Assembly (NCBI RefSeq): GCF_029626225.1
Contig: NZ_JARUBP010000001.1
Coordinates: 4,092,001 to 4,156,000 of the forward strand
Reading direction: 5' to 3'
Length of the DNA stretch: 64,000 nucleotides
DNA from: Asanoa sp. WMMD1127
GTDB taxonomy: Bacteria > Actinomycetota > Actinomycetes > Mycobacteriales > Micromonosporaceae
Positions 51,402 through 63,505 of the stretch are shown piece after piece. The notes below the pieces were generated by a model, which was not told where the DNA came from, searched no databases, and saw only the letters and a list, made by a program, of their open reading frames with translations. Numbering within the stretch: position 1 is the stretch's first letter; each line of letters begins with the position of its first letter. The translations under genes and the position numbers were made by a program.

Positions 51402-52370
51402 GTGCGATGGGTGATCGTGGGCGCCGGCGCTGTCGGCGGTGTGGTCGGTGGCCGGTTGGCCGCCGCCGGCGAGGACGTGGTGCTGGTGGCCCGCGGGGCG
51501 CACCTCGACGCGATCCGCCGCGACGGGCTCGCGCTGCACTCGCCGGAGGGCCGGCAGACGCTGCGGCTCCCCGCGGTCGGCGCGGTCACCGAGCACGAGT
51601 GGCGCCCCGGCGATGTCGCCGTGCTCGCGGTCAAGGGCATGGACACGCCCGACGTGCTGCCCCCGCTGGCGGCCGCCGCGCCGCCGGAGACGCCCGTGCT
51701 CTGCCTGCAGAACGGCGTGGCCAACGAGCGGGCCGCGCTGCGGCACTTCCCCAACGTGTACGGCGTATGGGTGATTCTCCCCGCCACCCACCTCGCGCCG
51801 GGCGTGGTGGTCGCCCACAGCGCGCCGACGCCCGGCGGGCTCGACGTGGGCCGCTATCCGGGCGGTGTCGACGACACGGCCACGGCGGTCGCGGCGGGTC
51901 TGCGCGGCGCCGGCTTCGCCTCGGAAGCACGCCCGGACATCATGCGCTGGAAGTACGCGAAGCTGCTGATGAACCTCGGCAACTCGATCCAGGCCCTGTG
52001 TGGCCCCGAGGCCGACGGCATCGACAAGGTGGACGCCCTGCTCCGCGCCGAGGCGACCGAGGTGCTGCGGGTGGCCGGCATCGACGTGGCCACGGCGGCG
52101 GAGGACGCGCAGCGCCGGCGGAACCTGCTGTCGATCCAGCCGGTCGAGGGCACGCCGCGCGGCGGCGGGTCGAGTTGGCAGAGCCTCGCCCGGGGCACGG
52201 GCACGGTCGAGGCCGACTACCTCAACGGCGAGATCGTGCTGCTGGGCCGCCTGCACGGCGTCGCGACCCCGGCCAACGAACTGGCCCGCCGGCTGGTCAA
52301 CCGCGCGGCCCGCGACCACACCCGACCCGGCGCACTCACCCCCGCCGAGTTCCTGTCCCTGCTGCCCTGA
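51402..52370 (+). CDS. ketopantoate reductase-family (PanE/ApbA) protein
   Basis: A 322-aa NADPH enzyme. RWVIVGAGAVGGVVGGRL is the nucleotide loop, VLAVKGMDTPDVLP and LCLQNGVANERAALRHF follow, and KYAKLLMNLGNSIQAL with NGEIVLLGRLHGVATPANE forms the C-terminal domain. PanE makes pantoate for CoA, but actinobacteria hold several paralogs, so the exact substrate is open. GTG 51402 is the start. Confidence 0.88.
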   Translation: MRWVIVGAGAVGGVVGGRLAAAGEDVVLVARGAHLDAIRRDGLALHSPEGRQTLRLPAVGAVTEHEWRPGDVAVLAVKGMDTPDVLPPLAAAAPPETPVLCLQNGVANERAALRHFPNVYGVWVILPATHLAPGVVVAHSAPTPGGLDVGRYPGGVDDTATAVAAGLRGAGFASEARPDIMRWKYAKLLMNLGNSIQALCGPEADGIDKVDALLRAEATEVLRVAGIDVATAAEDAQRRRNLLSIQPVEGTPRGGGSSWQSLARGTGTVEADYLNGEIVLLGRLHGVATPANELARRLVNRAARDHTRPGALTPAEFLSLLP

Positions 52371-52391
52371 CACCGCGTAGCGTGCCGGGCT

Positions 52392-55073
52392 GTGATGGTT
52401 GGACGCTCAGCCGAACAGTCGCGGATCAATCGTGTGGTGGCCGACGCGAAGGGCGGTCGCAGTCGCTCGCTGGTGCTACGCGGGGAGGCCGGAATCGGCA
52501 AGACGGCGCTCCTCGACTACGCGGAGAGCGTCGCTGGCGGCATGCGGGTGCTGCGGGTGGTGGGGATCGAGTCCGAGGCCGAGGTGGCGTACGCCGCTCT
52601 GCACCTGATGTTCGTCCGCGACCTGCACCTGCTGGAGAGGTTGCCCGAAGCGCAGGCGGAGGCGCTGCGGGCCGCGTTCGGCGCCAGCGACGCCTCCGTC
52701 GAACGGATGCTGCCGGGCGCGGCGACGCTGTCGCTGCTCTCCGAGATCGCCGACCACCGGCCGCTGCTGTGCCTGCTCGACGATGCGCAGTGGTTCGACC
52801 AGTCGTCGATCGACGCCCTGCTGTTCGCGGTGCGCCGCCTGCACGCCGACCCGGTCGCGACCATCTTCGCGGCGCGCGACGGCGAGGCCGCGTTCCCGGC
52901 GTCCGGTGTGGAGAGCATCGCGCTGCGGCGACTGGACACTGTGGATGCCGCTCGCCTCGCCGTGGCCGCGTCGGCGCTGCCGAGCGGTGTCGTCGACCGC
53001 ATCGTGGCGGAGTCCGGCGGCAACCCGCTCGCGGTCGTCGAGTTGGCGGCCCACGCGACGGAGGCGCCGGAGGACCCGGCGCCGGTCGCGCCCTTGCCGG
53101 CCGCGGGGCGGCTCGACGCGCACTTCCGCCGGCTGGTGGGCGCGCTCGCGGAACCGACCAGGACGGTCCTGCTGCTGGCCGCGGCCGACCACGGCTCGCC
53201 GCTGCCGACCCTGCTCGCCGCCGCGGCCGAGCTCGGCAGCGACGCGGCTGACTTCGAGCCGGCCGAGCGGAGCCGGCTCGTGCACGTCACGGCCGACGGC
53301 GTGCTGTTCCGCCACCCGCTGATCCGGGCCGCGGCCTATCAGGAGGCGCCCTTCGCCCGTCGGCTCGCCGCCCACCGCGCCCTGGCCCGGGTGCTGACCG
53401 ATCCGCGCGATGCCGACCGGCGGGCCTGGCACGTCGCGGCCGCCGCCGCCGGGCCGGACGACGCGGCCGCGGACGGTCTGGAGCAGGTCGCCCAGCGGGC
53501 CACGGGGCGGGGCGCGGCGGCGGCCGTGGCGCGGGCCCTGGATCGGGCAGCCCATTTGACCGCGGCGCCGACCGTCCGCGGCCGGCGGCTGGTCGCCGCC
53601 GGCCGGGCGGCCTACGACGCCGGGCAGCTCGATCGGGCTGTCGAGCTGGCGGCGGCCGGCGCCGAGCTGACCGACGTGCCCGCCGAGATCGCGGAGGCCG
53701 GCTGGATCCGCGCGCAGGTCGCCTACGAGCGGGCGTCGCCGGCCGAGGCGTGCCGACTCGCGTTGGCGGCCGCGGCGCCGGTGCTCGCGACCGACCCGCG
53801 TCTCGCCGTCTCGATCCTGATCGAAGCCACCTGGTGCGCGCGCGACGCGGCGGACGTGGAGCTGCTGCGGCGCTGCGCCGGGTGGCTCCGGGCGCTGACG
53901 CAGGACGCCGTGCCCTCGATCGGTGGTCTGGTGGGCTTCGCCGACCTGCTGTGCGGTGACGTGGCGGCGGCGGTCGGGCCGATGCGCGACGCGCTCCTCG
54001 CGGCCCGCGACAGCGAGAACGGGGCCAAACTGGAGCGCTTGAACGCCGCGTTCCTCGGGTTGCTGGTGGGGGAGGACGACCTGGCCCTGGCGATGCTCGA
54101 CCGCCAGGTCGGAGAGCTGCGTGGCCGCGGCGAGCTGGGCTGGCTGCCGTACGCCCAGGAGCCCTTGGCGCTGGCCCAGCTGGCGACCGGCCGCCTCCGC
54201 GACGCGGACGGCAGCGTCGCCGAGGCGATGGCGCTCGGCGCGGAGCTCGGCCTGGAGCTCCAGGTGGTCGTCCTCTCCGCGACGGCGGCGTGGCTCGCCG
54301 CGGCCCGGGGCGAGCCCGACCACGCCCGTCGGCTGGCGACCCGCGTCGTCGCCGACTCCCGCCGGCACGGGATGGCGGCCGCACAGGCCAACTGGGCACT
54401 CGGTCTCGTGGACCTCACGAGCGGCGACCCCGGGCGCGCGCTGGAGCGACTCGAGGACGCCTGCGTGGCCGCGCCCGGCCGCGACATCATGGTGCGGGCG
54501 GTCCCCGACCACGTCGAGGCGGCGGTACGGGTCGGCGACGCCGCTCGGGCCCGGCTGTTCCTGCCCCGACTCGCGGAGTGGGCGGCGCACACGAAGAGCC
54601 CGGTGGCCGCCGCGCTCCTGCTGCGGTGCGAGGCGCTCCTGCACGACGGGGAGGCCGCGGACCGCCGGTTCGAGGAGGCGTTGGCGGCCGAGCGCTGCGG
54701 CCCGTACGACCGGGCCCGGACCCGGCTCGTGTTCGGCGAGTGGCTCCGCCGGCACCGGCGTCCGACGGCGGCCAAGGAGCAGCTCCTGGCGGCGTACGAA
54801 TCCTTCGACCGGATCGGCGCACAGGGTTGGCTGCCGCGCGTGCGGGCCGAGCTGACCGCGCTCGGGGAGACCGCACCGGGGGAGGCCGGGAGCGCCACCG
54901 GGCTGACGCCGCAGGAGCTGCAGGTGGTGCGGCGCGCGGCGACCGGCATGAGCAACCGGGAGATCGCCGCCGAACTGTTCCTCAGCCCGCGCACGGTGGG
55001 CCATCACCTCTACAAGGCGTACCCGAAACTCGGGGTCAGGCGGCGGGCGGAGCTGGGGAAGCTCGACTTATGA
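52392..55073 (+). CDS. LAL-type LuxR regulator with AAA ATPase domain
   Basis: An 893-aa regulator of the LAL (MalT-like) group. The N-terminal NTPase has Walker A LRGEAGIGKTALLDY (about residues 30-44) and Walker B LLCLLDDAQWFD. A long helical TPR-like middle follows. The C-terminal LuxR helix-turn-helix is LTPQELQVVRRAATGMSNREIAAELFLSPRTVGHHLYKAYPKLG. GTG 52392 or ATG 52395 start it. It lies 22 bp after panE-like but is likely an independent regulator; targets are unknown. Confidence 0.93.
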   Translation: MMVGRSAEQSRINRVVADAKGGRSRSLVLRGEAGIGKTALLDYAESVAGGMRVLRVVGIESEAEVAYAALHLMFVRDLHLLERLPEAQAEALRAAFGASDASVERMLPGAATLSLLSEIADHRPLLCLLDDAQWFDQSSIDALLFAVRRLHADPVATIFAARDGEAAFPASGVESIALRRLDTVDAARLAVAASALPSGVVDRIVAESGGNPLAVVELAAHATEAPEDPAPVAPLPAAGRLDAHFRRLVGALAEPTRTVLLLAAADHGSPLPTLLAAAAELGSDAADFEPAERSRLVHVTADGVLFRHPLIRAAAYQEAPFARRLAAHRALARVLTDPRDADRRAWHVAAAAAGPDDAAADGLEQVAQRATGRGAAAAVARALDRAAHLTAAPTVRGRRLVAAGRAAYDAGQLDRAVELAAAGAELTDVPAEIAEAGWIRAQVAYERASPAEACRLALAAAAPVLATDPRLAVSILIEATWCARDAADVELLRRCAGWLRALTQDAVPSIGGLVGFADLLCGDVAAAVGPMRDALLAARDSENGAKLERLNAAFLGLLVGEDDLALAMLDRQVGELRGRGELGWLPYAQEPLALAQLATGRLRDADGSVAEAMALGAELGLELQVVVLSATAAWLAAARGEPDHARRLATRVVADSRRHGMAAAQANWALGLVDLTSGDPGRALERLEDACVAAPGRDIMVRAVPDHVEAAVRVGDAARARLFLPRLAEWAAHTKSPVAAALLLRCEALLHDGEAADRRFEEALAAERCGPYDRARTRLVFGEWLRRHRRPTAAKEQLLAAYESFDRIGAQGWLPRVRAELTALGETAPGEAGSATGLTPQELQVVRRAATGMSNREIAAELFLSPRTVGHHLYKAYPKLGVRRRAELGKLDL

Positions 55074-55149
55074 GGGCCGCCGGGCCGGTGGTCGCGCAGC
55101 AGTCGTTCGACAGATGCGGACCCCATCGACCGGCTCCTAGCGTGATCGC

Positions 55150-55704
55150 ATGGGAAAGGTCGTCGTCCACAACCAGGTCACCGTCAACGGCGCTTTCGAG
55201 GCGCCCACACCCGAGGAATGGCTGGAGCTCGACGCCGACAGCGGCGACGCCGGCCTCGAGCAACTGATCCTCGCCGACGCGCTGCTGCTCGGCCGCAAGA
55301 CCTATGAAGGGCTGGCGGCGGTCTGGCCGCACCTCGCCGCGGACCCGACGATGGGCCACTACGCGGGGCGGATCAACGACATGCCGAAGTACGTCGCCTC
55401 GCGGACGCTCTCGGGGCCGCTGGAGTGGAACGCCACGCTGATCGAGGGCGAGGTCACGCAGGCCGTACCCGCGCTCAAGGACAAGCACACCGGCAACCTG
55501 ATCATCTCCGGGTGCGGGGAGCTGGCGCACACGCTGGCCGCGCAGGGGCAGGTCGACGAGTTCTGGTTCTGGATGAACCCGCACCTGTGGCCGGACGGGC
55601 CGCGAATCCTCGACGGTGTGGGCCCGATCCGCCTGCAGCTGGTGTCGGCCACGCCTTATCGGTCCGGGGTGGTCTGGCTGCGCTACCGGCCGGCCGGCGC
55701 GTGA
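55150..55704 (+). CDS. RibD-C/DHFR-fold reductase-like protein
   Basis: A 184-aa dihydrofolate-reductase-like protein. VVVHNQVTVNGAFEAP start, ADALLLGRKTYEGLAAVWP, MPKYVASRTLSGPLEWNATLI, NLIISGCGELAHTL and WLRYRPA end are typical. It belongs to the RibD C-terminal family common in actinobacteria, of unknown substrate. A relative lies at 59491-60036. The isomerase gene follows 14 bp later. Confidence 0.9.
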   Translation: MGKVVVHNQVTVNGAFEAPTPEEWLELDADSGDAGLEQLILADALLLGRKTYEGLAAVWPHLAADPTMGHYAGRINDMPKYVASRTLSGPLEWNATLIEGEVTQAVPALKDKHTGNLIISGCGELAHTLAAQGQVDEFWFWMNPHLWPDGPRILDGVGPIRLQLVSATPYRSGVVWLRYRPAGA

Positions 55705-55718
55705 GGGGGAGTGCCGCG

Positions 55719-56495
55719 ATGAACACGTCCTCATATCTGAGCGGTGTTGTCGAGCAGACGAACACCTTCGCCGACTGGGTGCACGACAAGGATGCGGCGA
55801 CCCCGGTGCCGACCTGTCCGAAGTGGACCGTGGCCGACCTCGTCGACCATGTCGGCTCGACACAGCGCATGGTGGCGATGCTCGTGGGCGAGCGGATGCT
55901 CGAGCCGAGCAACGCGTTCGCCCGATACGTTCCCGCTCCGACCGACCCGGCCGAGTGGCGCGCCTGGTTGACGCAGGGCGCGGCCGAGGCCAAGCAGGCG
56001 TTCGAGTCGGTCACCGACGACACGCCGGTGTGGGACCCGTCCGGCGCGGACGCGGGCGTGCCGTTCTGGTCCCGCCGGCTGTTCGGGGAGGCCAGCGTGC
56101 ACCGTGCGGACGCGGCCGCGGCGCTCGGCGTGCCCTACGAGTTGGCGCCCGAGCGGGCCGTCGCGGCCATCGAGGACTGGCTGGACACCCTGACCTCGCG
56201 CGGCTACTGGGAGAACAGGCCGGACTTCGCCGACGCGCTGCGCGGCGACGGCCAGACCCTGCACTTCCACGCGACCGACGCGACCGGGGAGTGGCTGGCC
56301 CGCCGCGAGCCGGACCAGGTCGCCCTGGAACGCGCACACGCCGACGCGGACGTCACGGTCAGCGGCCCGGCCGTCGACCTGCTGCTCGTGCTGAGCCGCC
56401 GCCGCCCCCTGGCCGCGGCGTCCAGCCTGGCGATCGACGGCGACCGCGCCCTGCTCGACCTCTGGATCAACCACATGGACTGGGTCACCGACTGA
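55719..56495 (+). CDS. maleylpyruvate isomerase-family, mycothiol-type DinB protein
   Basis: A 258-aa two-domain protein. The N-terminal DinB-like metal domain has TCPKWTVADLVDHVGSTQRM and FGEASVHRADAAAALG. The C-terminal domain is of the MDMPI type (ADVTVSGPAVDLLLVLSRR). Such actinobacterial proteins use mycothiol as thiol cofactor. The isomerase name is by family only. It forms a likely operon with the DHFR-like gene. Confidence 0.9.
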   Translation: MNTSSYLSGVVEQTNTFADWVHDKDAATPVPTCPKWTVADLVDHVGSTQRMVAMLVGERMLEPSNAFARYVPAPTDPAEWRAWLTQGAAEAKQAFESVTDDTPVWDPSGADAGVPFWSRRLFGEASVHRADAAAALGVPYELAPERAVAAIEDWLDTLTSRGYWENRPDFADALRGDGQTLHFHATDATGEWLARREPDQVALERAHADADVTVSGPAVDLLLVLSRRRPLAAASSLAIDGDRALLDLWINHMDWVTD

Positions 56496-56562
56496 CCCGC
56501 GTCACCGCGTCCGTCGTGGACGGTCGGGCGGTGTCGCGCTTCTGACAGGGATTGTGTGCACG

Positions 56563-56591
56563 TTGGTCACTAGTGTGTCTCGCGGTGTAAG
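56563..56591 (+). promoter_or_regulatory. possible promoter of the DUF262 defence-like pair
   Basis: TTGGTC (56563-56568) is followed after 17 bp by TGTAAG (56586-56591), 35 bp upstream of the GTG start. The match is weak. No inverted repeat operator is seen in this 131-bp gap. Confidence 0.3.
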
Positions 56592-56626
56592 CCATCGGCG
56601 GAATCCGTGGGACGGGGTGGTCGACC

Positions 56627-57310
56627 GTGGACGCGAAGTTGCTCGTCAAGCAGTTCAACACCGACGCCGGGCTGGCGTTCATCGAGATCATTCGGGCTGT
56701 GGACAGGCCCGTCGGGGCGCGGGAGATCAAGCAGGAGATCGTCGCGGCCGGCGGCAAGCAGGGTGATGTCGATCGGCAGTGGAAGCGGCTTCAGCCCTAT
56801 CTGAAACTGCACCCGCATGTCGAGAAGTCGGGCGCCACGCGCTACGAATGGTCGGCGGCGCCGCACTCGTCGGCCGAGTCGCTGCAGCTGCTGTCCGCGC
56901 AGTCGTCCGTACGCGTGCCCGGCTGGCTCACCCAGGCCCTCGCCGCCAACGTGGCCGACAGCCTCGCGGTCGCCGAGACTTCCGGCGACCGCGCCCAGGC
57001 CAGCTGGACGCGGCAGCGCGAGCAGGACAAGGCCCGCGTCCTCGCCGACCTCGCGACGGTGATCGGGGCCATGCGCGCCGAGGGCGCGACGCTGGCCGAT
57101 CTGGACGGCTGGCTGCGCGACGAGACCGAGCGCAAGCGCCTGCGCCCGGTGGCCCAGGTGGGCGAGACGGTGACCTTCGACCCCGACCGACACGAGATCG
57201 CCGGCGGCCGGGCCGCACGCGGGGCCGCGGTCACCGTCACCCGCACGGGCTACCTCTGGCAGGGCGGCGACGGCCCGGTCGTGCTGGTCAAAGCCACCGT
57301 CGCGCCATGA
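56627..57310 (+). CDS. winged-helix protein with GrpE-like C-terminal beta domain
   Basis: A 227-aa soluble protein, first gene of a two-gene unit. Residues 1-76 (IEIIRAVDRPVGAREIKQEIVAAGG, QWKRLQPYLKLHPHV, RYEWS) look like a winged-helix domain. The middle (about 90-170) is helical and charged. Residues 173-227 (VAQVGETVTFDPDRHEI, GAAVTVTRTGYLW) resemble the beta domain of GrpE nucleotide-exchange factors. There is no catalytic motif. Its TGA overlaps the ATG of the DUF262-RAMA gene, so the products are made together. Possibly a DNA-binding or regulatory partner; function unknown. Confidence 0.75.
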   Translation: MDAKLLVKQFNTDAGLAFIEIIRAVDRPVGAREIKQEIVAAGGKQGDVDRQWKRLQPYLKLHPHVEKSGATRYEWSAAPHSSAESLQLLSAQSSVRVPGWLTQALAANVADSLAVAETSGDRAQASWTRQREQDKARVLADLATVIGAMRAEGATLADLDGWLRDETERKRLRPVAQVGETVTFDPDRHEIAGGRAARGAAVTVTRTGYLWQGGDGPVVLVKATVAP

Positions 57311-59496
57311 GGCGCCGCGCGAAGAACCTCGTCGACGCCTGCGGACACACCGTCTACGACCTGTTCCAGGAGCGGTACTACTACCTCGACTACTTCCAGC
57401 GGGACTACGTCTGGGAGGAGCCGCAGGTCAAGAAGCTGATCACGGATCTCGCCGACAAGTTCCTGGACCAGTGGAAGACTCCTCACGCCGCTCGCGACGT
57501 GGACTATTACGACCCCTACTTCCTCGGTCCGTTCATCGTCTACGAGAACGACCGCAAGACGTATCTGGCCGACGGGCAGCAGCGGGTCGTCACGCTCATG
57601 CTGTTGCTGATCTATCTCCGGCGGCTCGTGGACGAGCTGGACGGGCAGCCGGGCCACGGCGCCACGCTGGCCACCCTCGTCGTGACCGAGCGGTTCGGCC
57701 GGAAGACCTTCGCGGTGGACGTCGACAAATACCGGGCCTGCTTCGAGGCGCTCGTCGACGGTCGCGACTACAACCTCGACGGCGAGCCACCATATGTGCG
57801 GCGGATCTGGGCGGCGTTCCAGCACATCGAGACGCATCTGCCGGCGCCCCTGCGCGGTGAGAGCCTGCCGCTGTTTGTCGAATGGCTGCTCTACCGCGTC
57901 TCGCTCATCGCACTGTCGGCGGGCGACCGCGAACGCGCGATCGAGATGTTCCAGTCGATGAACGACCGCGGCGTGCACCTCTCGCCGATGGACCATCTGA
58001 AGCGCTATCTGCTCGGCGACGCCGCCGACCACGACTATGAGCTGCTCGACCACCAATGGCAGTCGATGGTGTCCGACCTGGAGTCGGTGGAGCGGGGCTC
58101 GGCTTTCCGCTACGTCCGCGAGGTTCTCCGCGCGAAGTACTTCGACCCGGCCCACGACGGCGGCCCCAGCCTGGACAACGCCACGCACGAGTGGGCGCTC
58201 GCCCACGAGAAGGACATCTGGCCCGACCGCAGGAACGGCGATCGCGCGCGGTTCTTCACCGACGTGCTCGCACCCATGAAGCAGACCTACGCCACCCTGC
58301 TGCGGGCGCAGACCAAGGTCGTCGCCGGACTGGAGGCCGTCCGCTACAACGCCTGGAACGGCGTTTCCAGCCAGTTCACCCTGACGCTCGCGGCCATGCG
58401 ACCGGACGACAGCAGGGCGGCCCGTCAGCGCAAGGCCCGCCTGGTGGCCAACGTCATCGACCTCTTCGTCGTGACACAGGGCGTCAGCAACGAGCCCTAT
58501 GACCAGAAGGCCGTCGACGCCCTGGTCGAAGCGCTGCTGCCCAGGGTGCGGCTGTGTCACACCGAGGACGAGCTGCGCGAGGCGCTGGCCGAGGCGGCGG
58601 ACGGTTGGGTGGAACGCCTCGCCGACCTGGTCGACCTGCGCTTCCACAACAACGGCCCGTTCATCCACTATCTGCTGACCCGGCTCACCGCGTGGCTGGA
58701 GGTCGGCGCCGAGCGTGAGGACCCGACGGACCGGTTCCTGCGCCGCCGCACGGGCGACCGCGGTTTCGAGATCGAACACCTCCTCACCAGCACGGCGGCC
58801 AAGTATGCCCACGTGCAGCCCGACGCCCGCGCCTATGCCCTGCTGCGCAGCCGCCTCGGCGCGCTCGTGCTGCTCGACGGTCCCGACAACGGCAGCTATG
58901 GCGGGCTGCCGCTGGCCGACAAGGTGCCGCTCTATCGCGGCGACACCCTGCTCGCCGCCACCCTCAACCCCGGCTTCTTCGACGAGAAGGGCAAGGTGCG
59001 GCTGCGCCGGTTCGTCAAGGAGCAGCGGCTGGCCGGCGCCTTCCCGGCCTATGCCGGCGACGCCGGGTTGGCCGATCTCGTCGAGGCCCGGGGCAAGCTC
59101 TATCGCCTCATGGCCGAGCGGATCTGGGACCTCGGCAGCCTCGGGCTCGTTACCAGCGGCGCGCCGCCGCTCAGCGGAAAGGGGGCCGGGCAGCCCAGAC
59201 GCACGCGCCGCCACCACGGCGTGCGCCTGACCGACCTGGTCGCGGCCGGCCTGGTGCGCCCCGGCGACCGGCTGGAGGGCAACCGCAAGGGCCGCGCGCA
59301 CCTGGCCCAGGTGCTCGACGGCGCGCGGATCCGCACCGCCTCCGGCGCGGTGTTTCCCAGCCTTTCGGCCGCGGCGATGGACGCCCTCGACCTGTCGGCG
59401 GCGAACGGCTGGACCTTCTGGCGCCTTTCGCGGACGGGCGACAGCATGGACGCGCTGCGCGACCGCCTGCGCGCCCGGGCGGACGGCGGCTCATGA
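57307..59496 (+). CDS. DUF262-DUF1524(HNH)-RAMA protein, GmrSD-like
   Basis: A 729-aa protein. The N-terminal DUF262 (ParB/Srx-like NTPase) domain has QRDYVWEEPQ (31-40), FLGPFIV (72-78) and DGQQRVVTL (89-97). After a helical region, DUF1524 brings the nuclease motif FEIEH (His491) and LGALVLLDGPDNGSYGGLPLADK, an HNH/His-Me finger layout. From about 638 to the end a RAMA-type domain follows (LTDLVAAGLVRPGD.., NGWTFWRLS), known from restriction and methylation systems. GmrSD-type type IV restriction enzymes share the first two parts. The open frame further upstream is a shadow of the preceding gene. Confidence 0.85.
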   Translation: MRRRAKNLVDACGHTVYDLFQERYYYLDYFQRDYVWEEPQVKKLITDLADKFLDQWKTPHAARDVDYYDPYFLGPFIVYENDRKTYLADGQQRVVTLMLLLIYLRRLVDELDGQPGHGATLATLVVTERFGRKTFAVDVDKYRACFEALVDGRDYNLDGEPPYVRRIWAAFQHIETHLPAPLRGESLPLFVEWLLYRVSLIALSAGDRERAIEMFQSMNDRGVHLSPMDHLKRYLLGDAADHDYELLDHQWQSMVSDLESVERGSAFRYVREVLRAKYFDPAHDGGPSLDNATHEWALAHEKDIWPDRRNGDRARFFTDVLAPMKQTYATLLRAQTKVVAGLEAVRYNAWNGVSSQFTLTLAAMRPDDSRAARQRKARLVANVIDLFVVTQGVSNEPYDQKAVDALVEALLPRVRLCHTEDELREALAEAADGWVERLADLVDLRFHNNGPFIHYLLTRLTAWLEVGAEREDPTDRFLRRRTGDRGFEIEHLLTSTAAKYAHVQPDARAYALLRSRLGALVLLDGPDNGSYGGLPLADKVPLYRGDTLLAATLNPGFFDEKGKVRLRRFVKEQRLAGAFPAYAGDAGLADLVEARGKLYRLMAERIWDLGSLGLVTSGAPPLSGKGAGQPRRTRRHHGVRLTDLVAAGLVRPGDRLEGNRKGRAHLAQVLDGARIRTASGAVFPSLSAAAMDALDLSAANGWTFWRLSRTGDSMDALRDRLRARADGGS

Positions 59497-60036
59497 CACG
59501 GCGTAGGTCAGGTAGGCGAACGGACCGACCTGCTCGACCGAGGTGAGCGACAACCGGGACGAGGTGAGCCGCCGGGGCAGCAGCGGCGCGCCCGCGCCGA
59601 GCGTCACCGGCGCCATGCCGAGGATGATCTCGTCGAGCAGGCCCGCGTCGGCGAACGTGCCGACCAGCTCACCACCGCCCACCAGCCAGATGTCGCGATC
59701 ACCTGCCGCCGCGGTCATCGCCTCGTGCACCGGACGCACGTCACCGGAGACGAACGTGATGTCGGCCCCAGGGATCGCCGGTAGGTCGCGGTGCGTGAAC
59801 ACCCAGGCCGGGCGGTCCGCATACCACTCCTGCCATTTCTCCGGATGCTCCAGCAGTTTCTCGTGGTCGAGCACCCACTCATAGGTCGTCGCGCCCATCG
59901 CGAAGGCGCCGATCCGCGCGAAGAACGGCGCGAAGCGGTCGTCGCGGTCGGTGACCTCGAAGAGCCAGTCGAGCGAGTTGGCGGAGTCGGCGATGAACCC
60001 GTCGATCGTGGTCGCGGTGTAGTAGCGGGTAGCCAT
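59491..60036 (-). CDS. RibD-C/DHFR-fold reductase-like protein
   Basis: A 181-aa dihydrofolate-reductase-like protein: TRYYTATTIDGFIADSANSLDWLFEV start, AFAMGATTYEWVL, DIWLVGGGELVGTFADAGLLDEIIL and PLLPRRLTSSRLSL. It is the second such protein here but not a close copy of the one at 55150. It converges on the RAMA-protein gene with a 6-bp overlap. The substrate is unknown. Confidence 0.9.
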   Translation of the reverse strand: MATRYYTATTIDGFIADSANSLDWLFEVTDRDDRFAPFFARIGAFAMGATTYEWVLDHEKLLEHPEKWQEWYADRPAWVFTHRDLPAIPGADITFVSGDVRPVHEAMTAAAGDRDIWLVGGGELVGTFADAGLLDEIILGMAPVTLGAGAPLLPRRLTSSRLSLTSVEQVGPFAYLTYAVS

Positions 60037-60070
60037 GAAGACACCACACCACGTGGGTGCGACAGAAAAG

Positions 60071-60601
60071 CTAGAGCGCGGGCGGCGGGTCGGACCGCAA
60101 CCGGCTGTAGAGGTAGCCGTCCCGCCAGGCGCCGTCGCGGAACTCGCACGCCCGCACGACGCCCTCCAGCTGGAACCCGGCCTTCACCAGGGACCGCTGC
60201 TCGGCCACGTTCTCCGCGTGGGTGCCGGCCTGGATCCGTTGCACCGGCGCCAGCGCGAACAGGTAGTCGCACAGCATCGCCTGCGCCCGCCAGCCGAGGC
60301 CCCGACCGCGGAACTCCGGCAACAGCGCGATCCCGATCTCGAAATAGGGCCCCCGCCCGGCATAGAGCCCCTCGGCGTAGCTGACGAACCCTGCCCGCCG
60401 CTCGCCCGCGCAGACCATCAGCCGACCATCGCGCGAGCCGAGGAAGCCGTCCTCGGCAAATCGCTTGGCCACACCCTGGACGTCCTGGAACCCGCGCCAG
60501 TCGAGCCCGATCAGCCCGGGCTCGACACAGAACCGGCGGAACAGGTCGAGGTCGTCTTCGTCGCTGACGGGCCGCAGCACAGGGAGGTCGCTCGCCACCA
60601 T
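60071..60601 (-). CDS. RimJ/RimL-type GNAT N-acetyltransferase
   Basis: A 176-aa GNAT: LPVLRPVSDEDDLDLFRRFC start, IGIALLPEFRGRGLGWRAQAMLCDYLF with the acetyl-CoA loop, and RIQAGTHAENVAEQRSLVKAGFQLEGVVRACEFRDGAWRDGYLYSRL. ATG 60601 is used; the open frame upstream is antisense to the ComB gene. The target is unknown. Confidence 0.9.
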   Translation of the reverse strand: MVASDLPVLRPVSDEDDLDLFRRFCVEPGLIGLDWRGFQDVQGVAKRFAEDGFLGSRDGRLMVCAGERRAGFVSYAEGLYAGRGPYFEIGIALLPEFRGRGLGWRAQAMLCDYLFALAPVQRIQAGTHAENVAEQRSLVKAGFQLEGVVRACEFRDGAWRDGYLYSRLRSDPPPAL

Positions 60602-62526: not shown

Positions 62527-63050
62527 TCGAGCTCGTGCACACGTCCGCGGCGGGTGCGACGGCACTGGGGGCTGCCTACCGGCTCTTGGAAGAGGTGTTC
62601 GAGGGGGACTTCGGCGCCGAGGACTGGGAGCACTCGCTCGGTGGCATGCATGCCTTCGCGTGGGAGGGTGACGATCTCGTCGGGCACGGGAGCGTCGTGC
62701 AGCGCCGCCTCGTCCACAACGGACGTGCGCTGCGCTGCGGCTACGTCGAGGGGGTCGGCGTCCGCGCGGATCAGCGCCGCCGCGGCCACGGCGCCGCGGT
62801 GATGGGGGCGCTCGAGTCGGTGATCCGGGCGGCGTACGACCTGGGCGCGCTCGGCACCACCGACCTCGGCGAGCCGTTCTATCGCAGCCGTGGCTGGCTG
62901 CGGTGGACCGGCCCGCTCGCCGCCCTCACCCCCGACGGCAGCAAGCCGACCCCCGAGGAGCAGGGCGCCGTCTACGTCTTCCCGGGCGTCATGCCGCTCG
63001 ACCTCTCGGCCCCGCTCACCTGCGACTGGCGCGACGGCGACGTCTGGTAG
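62523..63050 (+). CDS. aminoglycoside 2'-N-acetyltransferase, AAC(2')-I type
   Basis: A 175-aa GNAT enzyme. The AAC(2')-I hallmarks are clear: ELVHTSAAG start, DWEHSLGGMHAFAW, VQRRLVHNGRALRCGYVEGVGVRADQRRRGHG with the acetyl-CoA loop, FYRSRGWLRWTGP and the terminal CDWRDGDVW. They line up with mycobacterial AAC(2')-Ic from memory. It would acetylate the 2'-amino group of gentamicin, tobramycin and similar drugs; in vivo it may have another role. It is coupled to an ArsR-type regulator. The 3' 79 bases overlap the convergent Nudix gene. Confidence 0.9.
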   Translation: MIELVHTSAAGATALGAAYRLLEEVFEGDFGAEDWEHSLGGMHAFAWEGDDLVGHGSVVQRRLVHNGRALRCGYVEGVGVRADQRRRGHGAAVMGALESVIRAAYDLGALGTTDLGEPFYRSRGWLRWTGPLAALTPDGSKPTPEEQGAVYVFPGVMPLDLSAPLTCDWRDGDVW

Positions 63051-63505
63051 CCGGCCTCCAGATAGACGTCGCCACCGGACAGCGCCGCCCGCACCCGGCG
63101 GGCCAGCCGCGGGCGCAGATGCGCGTCGAGCGCCGCCGGCGCCACGAAGGCGAACGCCGACAGCTCGGCGGCCGGCAGCACGATTTGCGCCACGTCGGCG
63201 GTTGTCAGGACGCCGCCGTCGAACAGGAACATCAGGCCGGCGTCCCACGGCGGCTCGGCCGCGAGCCAGTCGACCACCCGCAGCGGCCCGACCGGGAAGT
63301 CGGCGCCCAGCTCCTCGCGCACCTCGCGGCGCGCCCCGGCGAGCGGCGACTCGTCGGCCTCGACCGCGCCGCCGGGCACCTCCCAGCCGGTCTTGTAGGT
63401 CGGCCGGACCAGCAGCACCCGCCCGGCGCCGTCCTCGAACACCACGCCCGCCGCGACCCGCACCCGGGCCAGGCCGGCGATGTGCGCGGCCAGGTCGAAA
63501 GTCAT
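62972..63505 (-). CDS. Nudix hydrolase
   Basis: A 177-aa Nudix protein. The Nudix box reads GGAVEADESPLAGARREVREELGAD. VRVAAGVVFEDGAGRVLLVRPTYKTGWEVPG precedes it. It hydrolyses nucleoside-diphosphate-linked compounds, substrate unknown. The last 25-30 residues are polar, unlike the family, and lie antisense to the AAC(2') gene, so the extension may be neutral. Confidence 0.9.
   Translation of the reverse strand: MTFDLAAHIAGLARVRVAAGVVFEDGAGRVLLVRPTYKTGWEVPGGAVEADESPLAGARREVREELGADFPVGPLRVVDWLAAEPPWDAGLMFLFDGGVLTTADVAQIVLPAAELSAFAFVAPAALDAHLRPRLARRVRAALSGGDVYLEAGYQTSPSRQSQVSGAERSSGMTPGKT

Follow-up and report, generated by a model that had tools for sequence, protein, structure and literature searches.

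The closest described relatives of the locus reported here are the type IV restriction enzymes GmrSD and BrxU, together with the phosphorothioate-sensing DUF262 proteins SspE and DndI. The BrxU dimer is reported to split on nucleotide binding, with binding and hydrolysis preceding cleavage, and its residues D474 and H475 are needed for cutting and not for hydrolysis (PMC8565348); the motifs given for GmrD are (I/L/V)(E/D)H, L(G/A)NLxLLxxxN and NxxFxxKK, and the same 2015 account describes GmrSD fused to DUF4357 (PMC4619093). A GrpE-like protein dedicated to such an enzyme would offer a direct handle on how the binding of nucleoside triphosphates (NTPs) gates the GmrSD type. We describe here a two-gene locus, P1-P2, in a 64,000-nucleotide stretch of the Asanoa sp. 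WMMD1127 genome (the window, to which coordinates refer unless a contig is named), in which a gene for a DUF262-DUF1524-RAMA protein (P2) follows one for a protein with a GrpE-like half (P1). The pair is a real unit, in which P2 most likely works as a restriction enzyme of the HNH type, driven by NTP, and P1 as its dedicated regulator; the feature that looks new is a GmrSD-RAMA enzyme stably coupled with a GrpE-like protein.

Several likenesses and differences place the pair among described systems. First, P2 shares with GmrSD and BrxU the DGQQR motif, the E/D-H motif, asparagine N528, a single fused chain and a fold match, but lacks the first Asn of the HNH motif and the proline of EHxxP, and it has in addition a RAMA tail and a GrpE-like partner gene that looks obligate. 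Secondly, SspE and DndI are the top sequence and fold matches of P2 among solved structures, although P2 differs from both in bearing a RAMA tail; no dnd or ssp genes were recognised in the gene lists, no search aimed at them having been made. Thirdly, RAMA-type tails are found on other restriction or methylation proteins (CcrM and the RAMA-Mrr-NTPase, GIY-YIG-RAMA and GmrSD-DUF4357 fusions), whereas that of P2 is attached to DUF262-DUF1524 and tied to P1. Fourthly, a P1-type protein also stands beside a partner gene in the pairs of HSP70 with a winged helix-turn-helix (wHTH)/GrpE-like protein, and in the PADLOC candidate PDC-M61A/B, but P1 has a restriction enzyme for its partner and no HSP70 beside it. 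Lastly, chaperone parts occur in predicted immune systems, with HSP70 and GrpE in GAP1-N2 conflict neighbourhoods (PMC7159879) and Hsp70-like domains in CoCoNuT type IV systems (PMC11090510); unlike P1-P2 these keep HSP70, and the portions of both papers available to us do not describe GrpE with GmrSD. No paper uniting GmrSD with GrpE, or GrpE/Hsp70 with a winged helix and phage defence, was found in a search that had bioRxiv and most subscription papers outside its range.

Conservation, distribution and site of the pair

56532..59490, no strand assigned: two-gene cassette, bounded by the aligned blocks of genus mates and of G482, a genus mate that carries the pair
56627..57310, + strand: P1, 227 amino acids (aa), GTG start, probable winged helix plus GrpE-like protein (reading frame, 11-row alignment, hhalign)
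57307..57310, + strand: ATGA overlap of the P1 stop and P2 start (direct reading)
57307..59496, + strand: P2, 729 aa, DUF262-DUF1524-RAMA protein (reading frame, Pfam, alignment, model)

All 17 loci with the pair, the window included, come from two families and have P1 directly upstream of P2 (one P2 is cut by a contig end), and RAMA is present in all 16 pair loci with the whole P2 in view; HSP70 gave no match in any of the 17 stretches. An earlier sequence-only reading of the window had picked out the two genes and their ATGA overlap, which prove exact in coordinates and strand, and had named conservation across genomes as its own test, which this order bears out. The gap between the genes ranges from -4 to 54 bases in 11 measured loci, the ATGA overlap being confined to the window and the others lying at 9–54. 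The family was searched in 300 genomes, of which 39 have a P1 match (expect value, E, <= 0.01) and 39 a P2 match (E <= 1e-10). Each of the ten top-scoring P1 relatives has one of the ten top-scoring P2 relatives directly downstream, making 11 of 11 with the window; of the 39 genomes with P1 matches, 11 hold the pair, the window's own included. Full agreement of 11 P1 and 11 P2 genomes drawn independently from 300 has a chance of 2.7e-20, which is a yardstick only, since the groups were picked after the fact. That the genes are chance neighbours is ruled out by the conserved order in 17/17 loci.

In a class-wide sample of 345 genomes, a P1 profile (A1) found eight, namely the window's own, G008 and six of a second family (f98); P2 is directly downstream in all six f98 loci, whole and with its RAMA domain in five and truncated by the end of the contig in the sixth. 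Across the phylum, 4 of 396 sampled genomes had P1 matches, including a true GrpE (L006), the HSP70-type relative of G008, and a match in G393 that we take as chance. Two further scans of genome contigs found no relative, P2 has no match in phage records, and viral contigs scanned with P2 yielded 15 loci, none with a P1 match among the called genes. Beyond the P1-P2 footprint, the 11 family loci have little in common: one gene (window 62972-63505, Nudix-like by eye) is shared by three, and nothing by more. An Mrr-type nuclease lies directly upstream of the pair at L226, with an SNF2 helicase nearby, a resolvase and an integrase-type gene lie near the pair at L228, and a Phd/PIN pair at L229.

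The site of the cassette can be compared among genus mates. In four without the pair an ApbA-type gene (window 51402-52370) is followed by a RibD_C gene (59491), the aligned blocks being 6, 9, 87 and 164 bases apart; in the fifth, G482, P1-P2 alone lies between these genes. Of the five genus mates sampled, four therefore lack the cassette at this site, a pattern that does not distinguish gain from loss. A housekeeping role is unlikely, given this empty site, P1 in 39/300 family genomes and the pair in 11. The pair is under purifying selection, with ratios of nonsynonymous to synonymous substitution (dN/dS) of 0.12–0.28 in four genome pairs, and its identity does not track host relatedness: against a RecQ-like core gene, the identities of RecQ and P2 are 86.8 and 97.9 for G530-G565, 77.9 and 91.5 for G423-G625, and 88.0 and 41.5 for G504-G609.

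Domains of P2 and its relatives without P1

57355..58011, + strand: GmrSD_N (DUF262), P2 aa 17-235 (Pfam E 2.6e-25, above cut-off)
57571..57585, + strand: DGQQR motif, P2 aa 89-93 (38/38 relatives)
58666..58950, + strand: GmrSD_C (DUF1524, HNH-type) part, P2 aa 454-548 (Pfam E 0.0053, 17.1 bits, below the cut-off of 23; fold match)
58774..58779, + strand: E490-H491, counterpart of the E/D-H nuclease motif (36/37 relatives)
58888..58890, + strand: N528, conserved HNH-motif Asn (36/37 relatives)
59179..59481, + strand: RAMA domain, P2 aa 625-725 (Pfam E 1.4e-20, 73.7 bits against a cut-off of 35.2; CcrM 6pbd, E 6e-8 on 631-724)

The sequence-only reading had assigned P2 a DUF262 domain with DGQQR, a DUF1524 nuclease and a RAMA domain. 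The first and the last are confirmed, DGQQR being conserved in all 38 aligned relatives and RAMA having both its Pfam and its CcrM match, and the DUF1524 part stands as a divergent one, below the Pfam cut-off and recognised by E490-H491 and a fold match; P2 also matches Pfam DUF4357 weakly (E 0.075). The published GmrD motifs are kept in part, with E490, H491, N528 and K539 (the last also in 36/37 relatives) conserved and the first Asn replaced. Compared with solved structures, the P2 profile matched the DUF262 chain of 9jfl (DndI by name in the Foldseek listing), SspE and the RAMA domain of CcrM. In an AlphaFold2 model built from a 13-row alignment (mean predicted local distance difference test score, pLDDT, 74; predicted TM-score, pTM, 0.56) the RAMA part is mostly at pLDDT <50, so that its assignment rests on the Pfam and CcrM sequence matches, and the fold comparison covered the modelled first 610 residues. 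Foldseek matched these to DndI (5e-12), SspE (5e-8) and BrxU (7e-6), among six chains at E <= 0.001; the whole-chain TM-scores are low (0.22–0.38, with root-mean-square deviations of 12–25 A), and thus the domains of P2 agree with those of DndI, SspE and BrxU and their arrangement does not. Because of the motif conservation and the matches to DndI, SspE and BrxU, P2 is likely to be a nuclease-active enzyme.

The RAMA domain had also been credited with recognition of modified DNA, and this part of the earlier reading finds no support. In the CcrM-DNA structure RAMA touches the DNA backbone, and N6-methyladenine (6mA) gave no rise in binding by MPND, a RAMA protein with backbone contacts, according to the account in PMC9963953; other authors have proposed RAMA as a 6mA reader (PMC11037411). 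Because of the CcrM contacts and the lack of a 6mA effect on MPND, the RAMA domain of P2 is best read, by analogy, as a DNA-docking module. Its fusion to DUF262-DUF1524 is real, but of lessened novelty, as RAMA-type tails are present in 30 of 38 P2 relatives, 11 of them pair members, and the GmrSD-DUF4357 fusion is on record (PMC4619093).

P2 relatives also occur without P1. Twenty loci were fetched from 33 P1-less P2 match rows (13 weak or partial rows were left out), and none of the 20 has a P1 match. An hsdM- or hsdS-like gene is directly beside P2 in seven and within 1 kilobase (kb) in one (L139), a count (8/20) that comes from single marker queries and is a lower bound; in G023 the gene order is hsdM-hsdS-P2-RAMA. 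At the pair loci no hsdM or hsdS was found in the gene lists or by a crude methylase-motif scan of 11 loci. The nearest solved relatives of P2 being restriction enzymes, and 8 of 20 P1-less relatives lying near hsdM/hsdS, the restriction or defence role proposed from the sequence is plausible.

The P1-less loci also bear on a rival explanation, in which P1 would act as an antitoxin-like brake or an autoregulator of the winged-helix kind, holding a harmful P2 in check up to the moment of infection and using its GrpE-like half for dimerisation or P2 binding only. P1 is first in the operon, the gap is short and a winged helix is probable, and growth arrest is reported for SspE, a close effector relative, when its modification partner is lacking (PMC12707154); however, with P1 missing from 20 of 20 other fetched family P2 loci, the enzyme type does not need P1, and we consider a brake rather unlikely. 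As a separate observation, DUF262-DUF1524-RAMA genes stand beside type I hsdM/hsdS at L138, L142-L146, L149 and L038, where they are perhaps accessory nucleases of type I systems.

P1 and its relatives beside HSP70 genes

56663..56857, + strand: P1 residues 13-77, probable winged helix-turn-helix (low-confidence model; weak Pfam matches in relatives)
57014..57301, + strand: P1 residues 130-225, GrpE-like helix plus beta domain (hhalign; core common to pair-type and HSP70-type proteins)
P1 GrpE-like core residues: G179 F184 D185 H189 G199 V202 R206 G208 W211

P1 alone has no match in Pfam, GrpE included. Its 11-row alignment matches a 21-row GrpE alignment in hhalign with probability 95 and E 4e-8, over the helix and beta domain; the Pfam GrpE model itself picks up four of the 11 P1 proteins, all weakly (0.02 at best, below cut-off), and the search of the 396 phylum genomes reached a true GrpE between dnaK and dnaJ (E 2.8e-4). 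Judged from these comparisons the C-terminal half is GrpE-like, as the sequence-only reading had it. The winged helix of that reading is probable: three of 16 HSP70-type relatives have weak Pfam matches to WH_Rok (best 0.003), and the N-terminal part of the P1 model has the order HHH-beta-beta at low confidence (pLDDT 44.6). The P1 profile gave nothing but weak matches in the PDB (best 0.045), and the single-sequence model is too poor for a fold search.

A winged helix could make P1 a specificity subunit, which would recognise sequence or modified bases and so direct the nuclease P2 to its DNA target. Some type IV enzymes do sense 6mA through a winged helix (PMC11037411), and modification reading by the RAMA domain of P2 is not supported (PMC9963953), but a similar N-terminal part is present in HSP70-partnered relatives that have no nuclease adjacent in the stretches compared with P2, and the support for the winged helix is weak; we judge this role decidedly unlikely.

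Outside the pair, 37 P1 match rows remained, of which 26 were covered in 24 loci (ten rows with E >= 0.0013 and one contig-edge fragment were left out). An HSP70-like gene is adjacent in 22 of the 24, with Pfam HSP70 at E 3e-20 to 2e-27 in four scanned neighbours; the exceptions, L102 and L104, encode proteins of ~187 aa that match the winged-helix part alone (residues 2-95), with the GrpE-like half, HSP70 and a nearby P2 all absent. The earlier reader knew of no wHTH-GrpE pairing in described defence systems, a novelty that these HSP70-adjoining relatives weaken. A GrpE-type protein whose other relatives adjoin HSP70 thus has, in the pair, a restriction enzyme of type IV-like character as its partner, and what differs between the two P1 groups is the partner gene. 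In trees, the pair P1 form one clade (96/96) and the pair P2 another (100/100) with largely congruent branching, and the C-terminal halves fall into separate pair-type (96/96) and HSP70-type (93/81) groups (the P1 tree is without L102, L104 and L106, the P2 tree without the truncated L041, and the six f98 loci are in neither). These trees are midpoint-rooted and do not indicate the first partner of P1; HSP70 is the likelier, because GrpE is the established HSP70 exchange factor (PMC7159879). Both groups keep the GrpE core, the HSP70-type relatives having Glu145, Glu148 and Pro207 (window numbering) and the pair-type Trp100, Glu166, Arg171 and Gly213, in a comparison without L096 and the long P1 forms.

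In PADLOC, PDC-M61A matches the last 69 residues of P1 (0.0064) and the P1 of G609 (0.00032), and PDC-M61B matches one HSP70 neighbour (2.6e-6); another HSP70 and three P1 relatives of the HSP70 type were scanned with no match to PDC-M61, which makes the link a thin one, and the A and B subunits do not occur together at the window pair, HSP70 being absent. The P2-like PADLOC models are HEC-06, Orf5 and SspE. The PDC and HEC labels we take to denote published defence candidates.

The kept GrpE core and the HSP70-like neighbours of its cousins would also suit P1 as a sensor of the host chaperone, engaging DnaK in GrpE-like fashion and releasing or activating P2 when phages divert it, a guard-type arrangement; DnaJ-mediated phage sensing by bNACHT25 is the subject of one paper, going by its title (PMC12169576). 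However, pair-type P1 is without Glu145, Glu148 and Pro207 of the HSP70 type, and there is no HSP70 gene near the pair in the 17 stretches, so that we regard a chaperone sensor as highly improbable.

Some P1 relatives occur in larger assemblies. At six of the 24 loci (L098, L099, L101, L103, L105 and L106), and at L039 of G008, a DrmD/BrxHII-like SNF2 helicase accompanies a wHTH/GrpE-like protein of the longer form and an HSP70-like ATPase (~550 aa). PADLOC identifies the L098 helicase as DrmD (3e-138), leaves its HSP70 unmatched and gives the long protein 0.032, and the trio of helicase, HSP70-like and long P1-like proteins is possibly an undescribed defence system. L039 (G008:C12:43000-60000) holds, within ~14 kb, BrxL, a DrmD-like helicase and a GmrSD relative lacking RAMA, and a few kb from these HSP70 and a P1-like protein of 689 aa; P1-like and P2-like genes are side by side in this island, with HSP70 still present.

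A proposed mechanism and points against it

We think it moderately probable that the two genes make up a mobile immune cassette of the restriction type, with P2 as effector and P1 as a dedicated partner that sets its nucleotide or assembly state. That the pair serves in defence at all is likely, and we hold this with good confidence; P1 and P2 likely form a physical complex. The DUF262 domain of P2 would bind and hydrolyse nucleotide, the DUF1524/HNH domain would cut DNA and the C-terminal RAMA would dock the enzyme on DNA, with P1 binding P2 and setting its nucleotide or assembly state through the GrpE-like domain, relatives of which work, or are predicted to work, on the HSP70 ATPase; the winged helix of P1 may contact DNA, its own promoter or P2. 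Such a partner could act on a BrxU-like nucleotide cycle, and a nucleotide-exchange-like action of P1 is possible, with the balance against it. More doubtfully, we speculate that a GrpE-type factor switched client, leaving an HSP70 ATPase for the DUF262 NTPase, which is ParB-like, of a restriction enzyme; by exchange or ejection of nucleotide, P1 would then move P2 between a resting dimer and a cutting form. In such a pairing DNA restriction would be linked with a switch of the chaperone type, and the two P1 groups, partnered by a restriction enzyme or by HSP70, offer a natural experiment on client change in a cofactor family; the HSP70 plus wHTH/GrpE-like cassettes of actinobacteria, which are little known, likewise merit a test in defence.

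Several points weigh against an immune cassette of this kind. First, the window copy is surrounded by metabolic genes, and the Pfam view of neighbours covers the window and just four other pair loci (L081, L226, L228 and L229). Secondly, no P1 relative was found in plasmids or in two scans of viral contigs. Thirdly, in the 11 pair P2 proteins the first Asn of the E/D-H-N-N motif of GmrSD (in L(G/A)NL) is Ala in nine and Gly in two. Lastly, the matches behind the winged helix of P1 are weak, and pair-type P1, though keeping the GrpE core, is without the HSP70-type Glu pair and Pro207, so that nucleotide-exchange activity may be lost.

An Rfam scan of window 55900-60200 gave no match. To the left of the cassette the window has an extra 4.1 kb (52375-56530) with an AAA/LuxR regulator, a RibD_C protein and an MDMPI protein, absent there in the five genus mates. 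The genome of the window has a second GmrSD_N gene (L002, C1:16274-16702; E 4.5e-21) in a frame of 389 aa.

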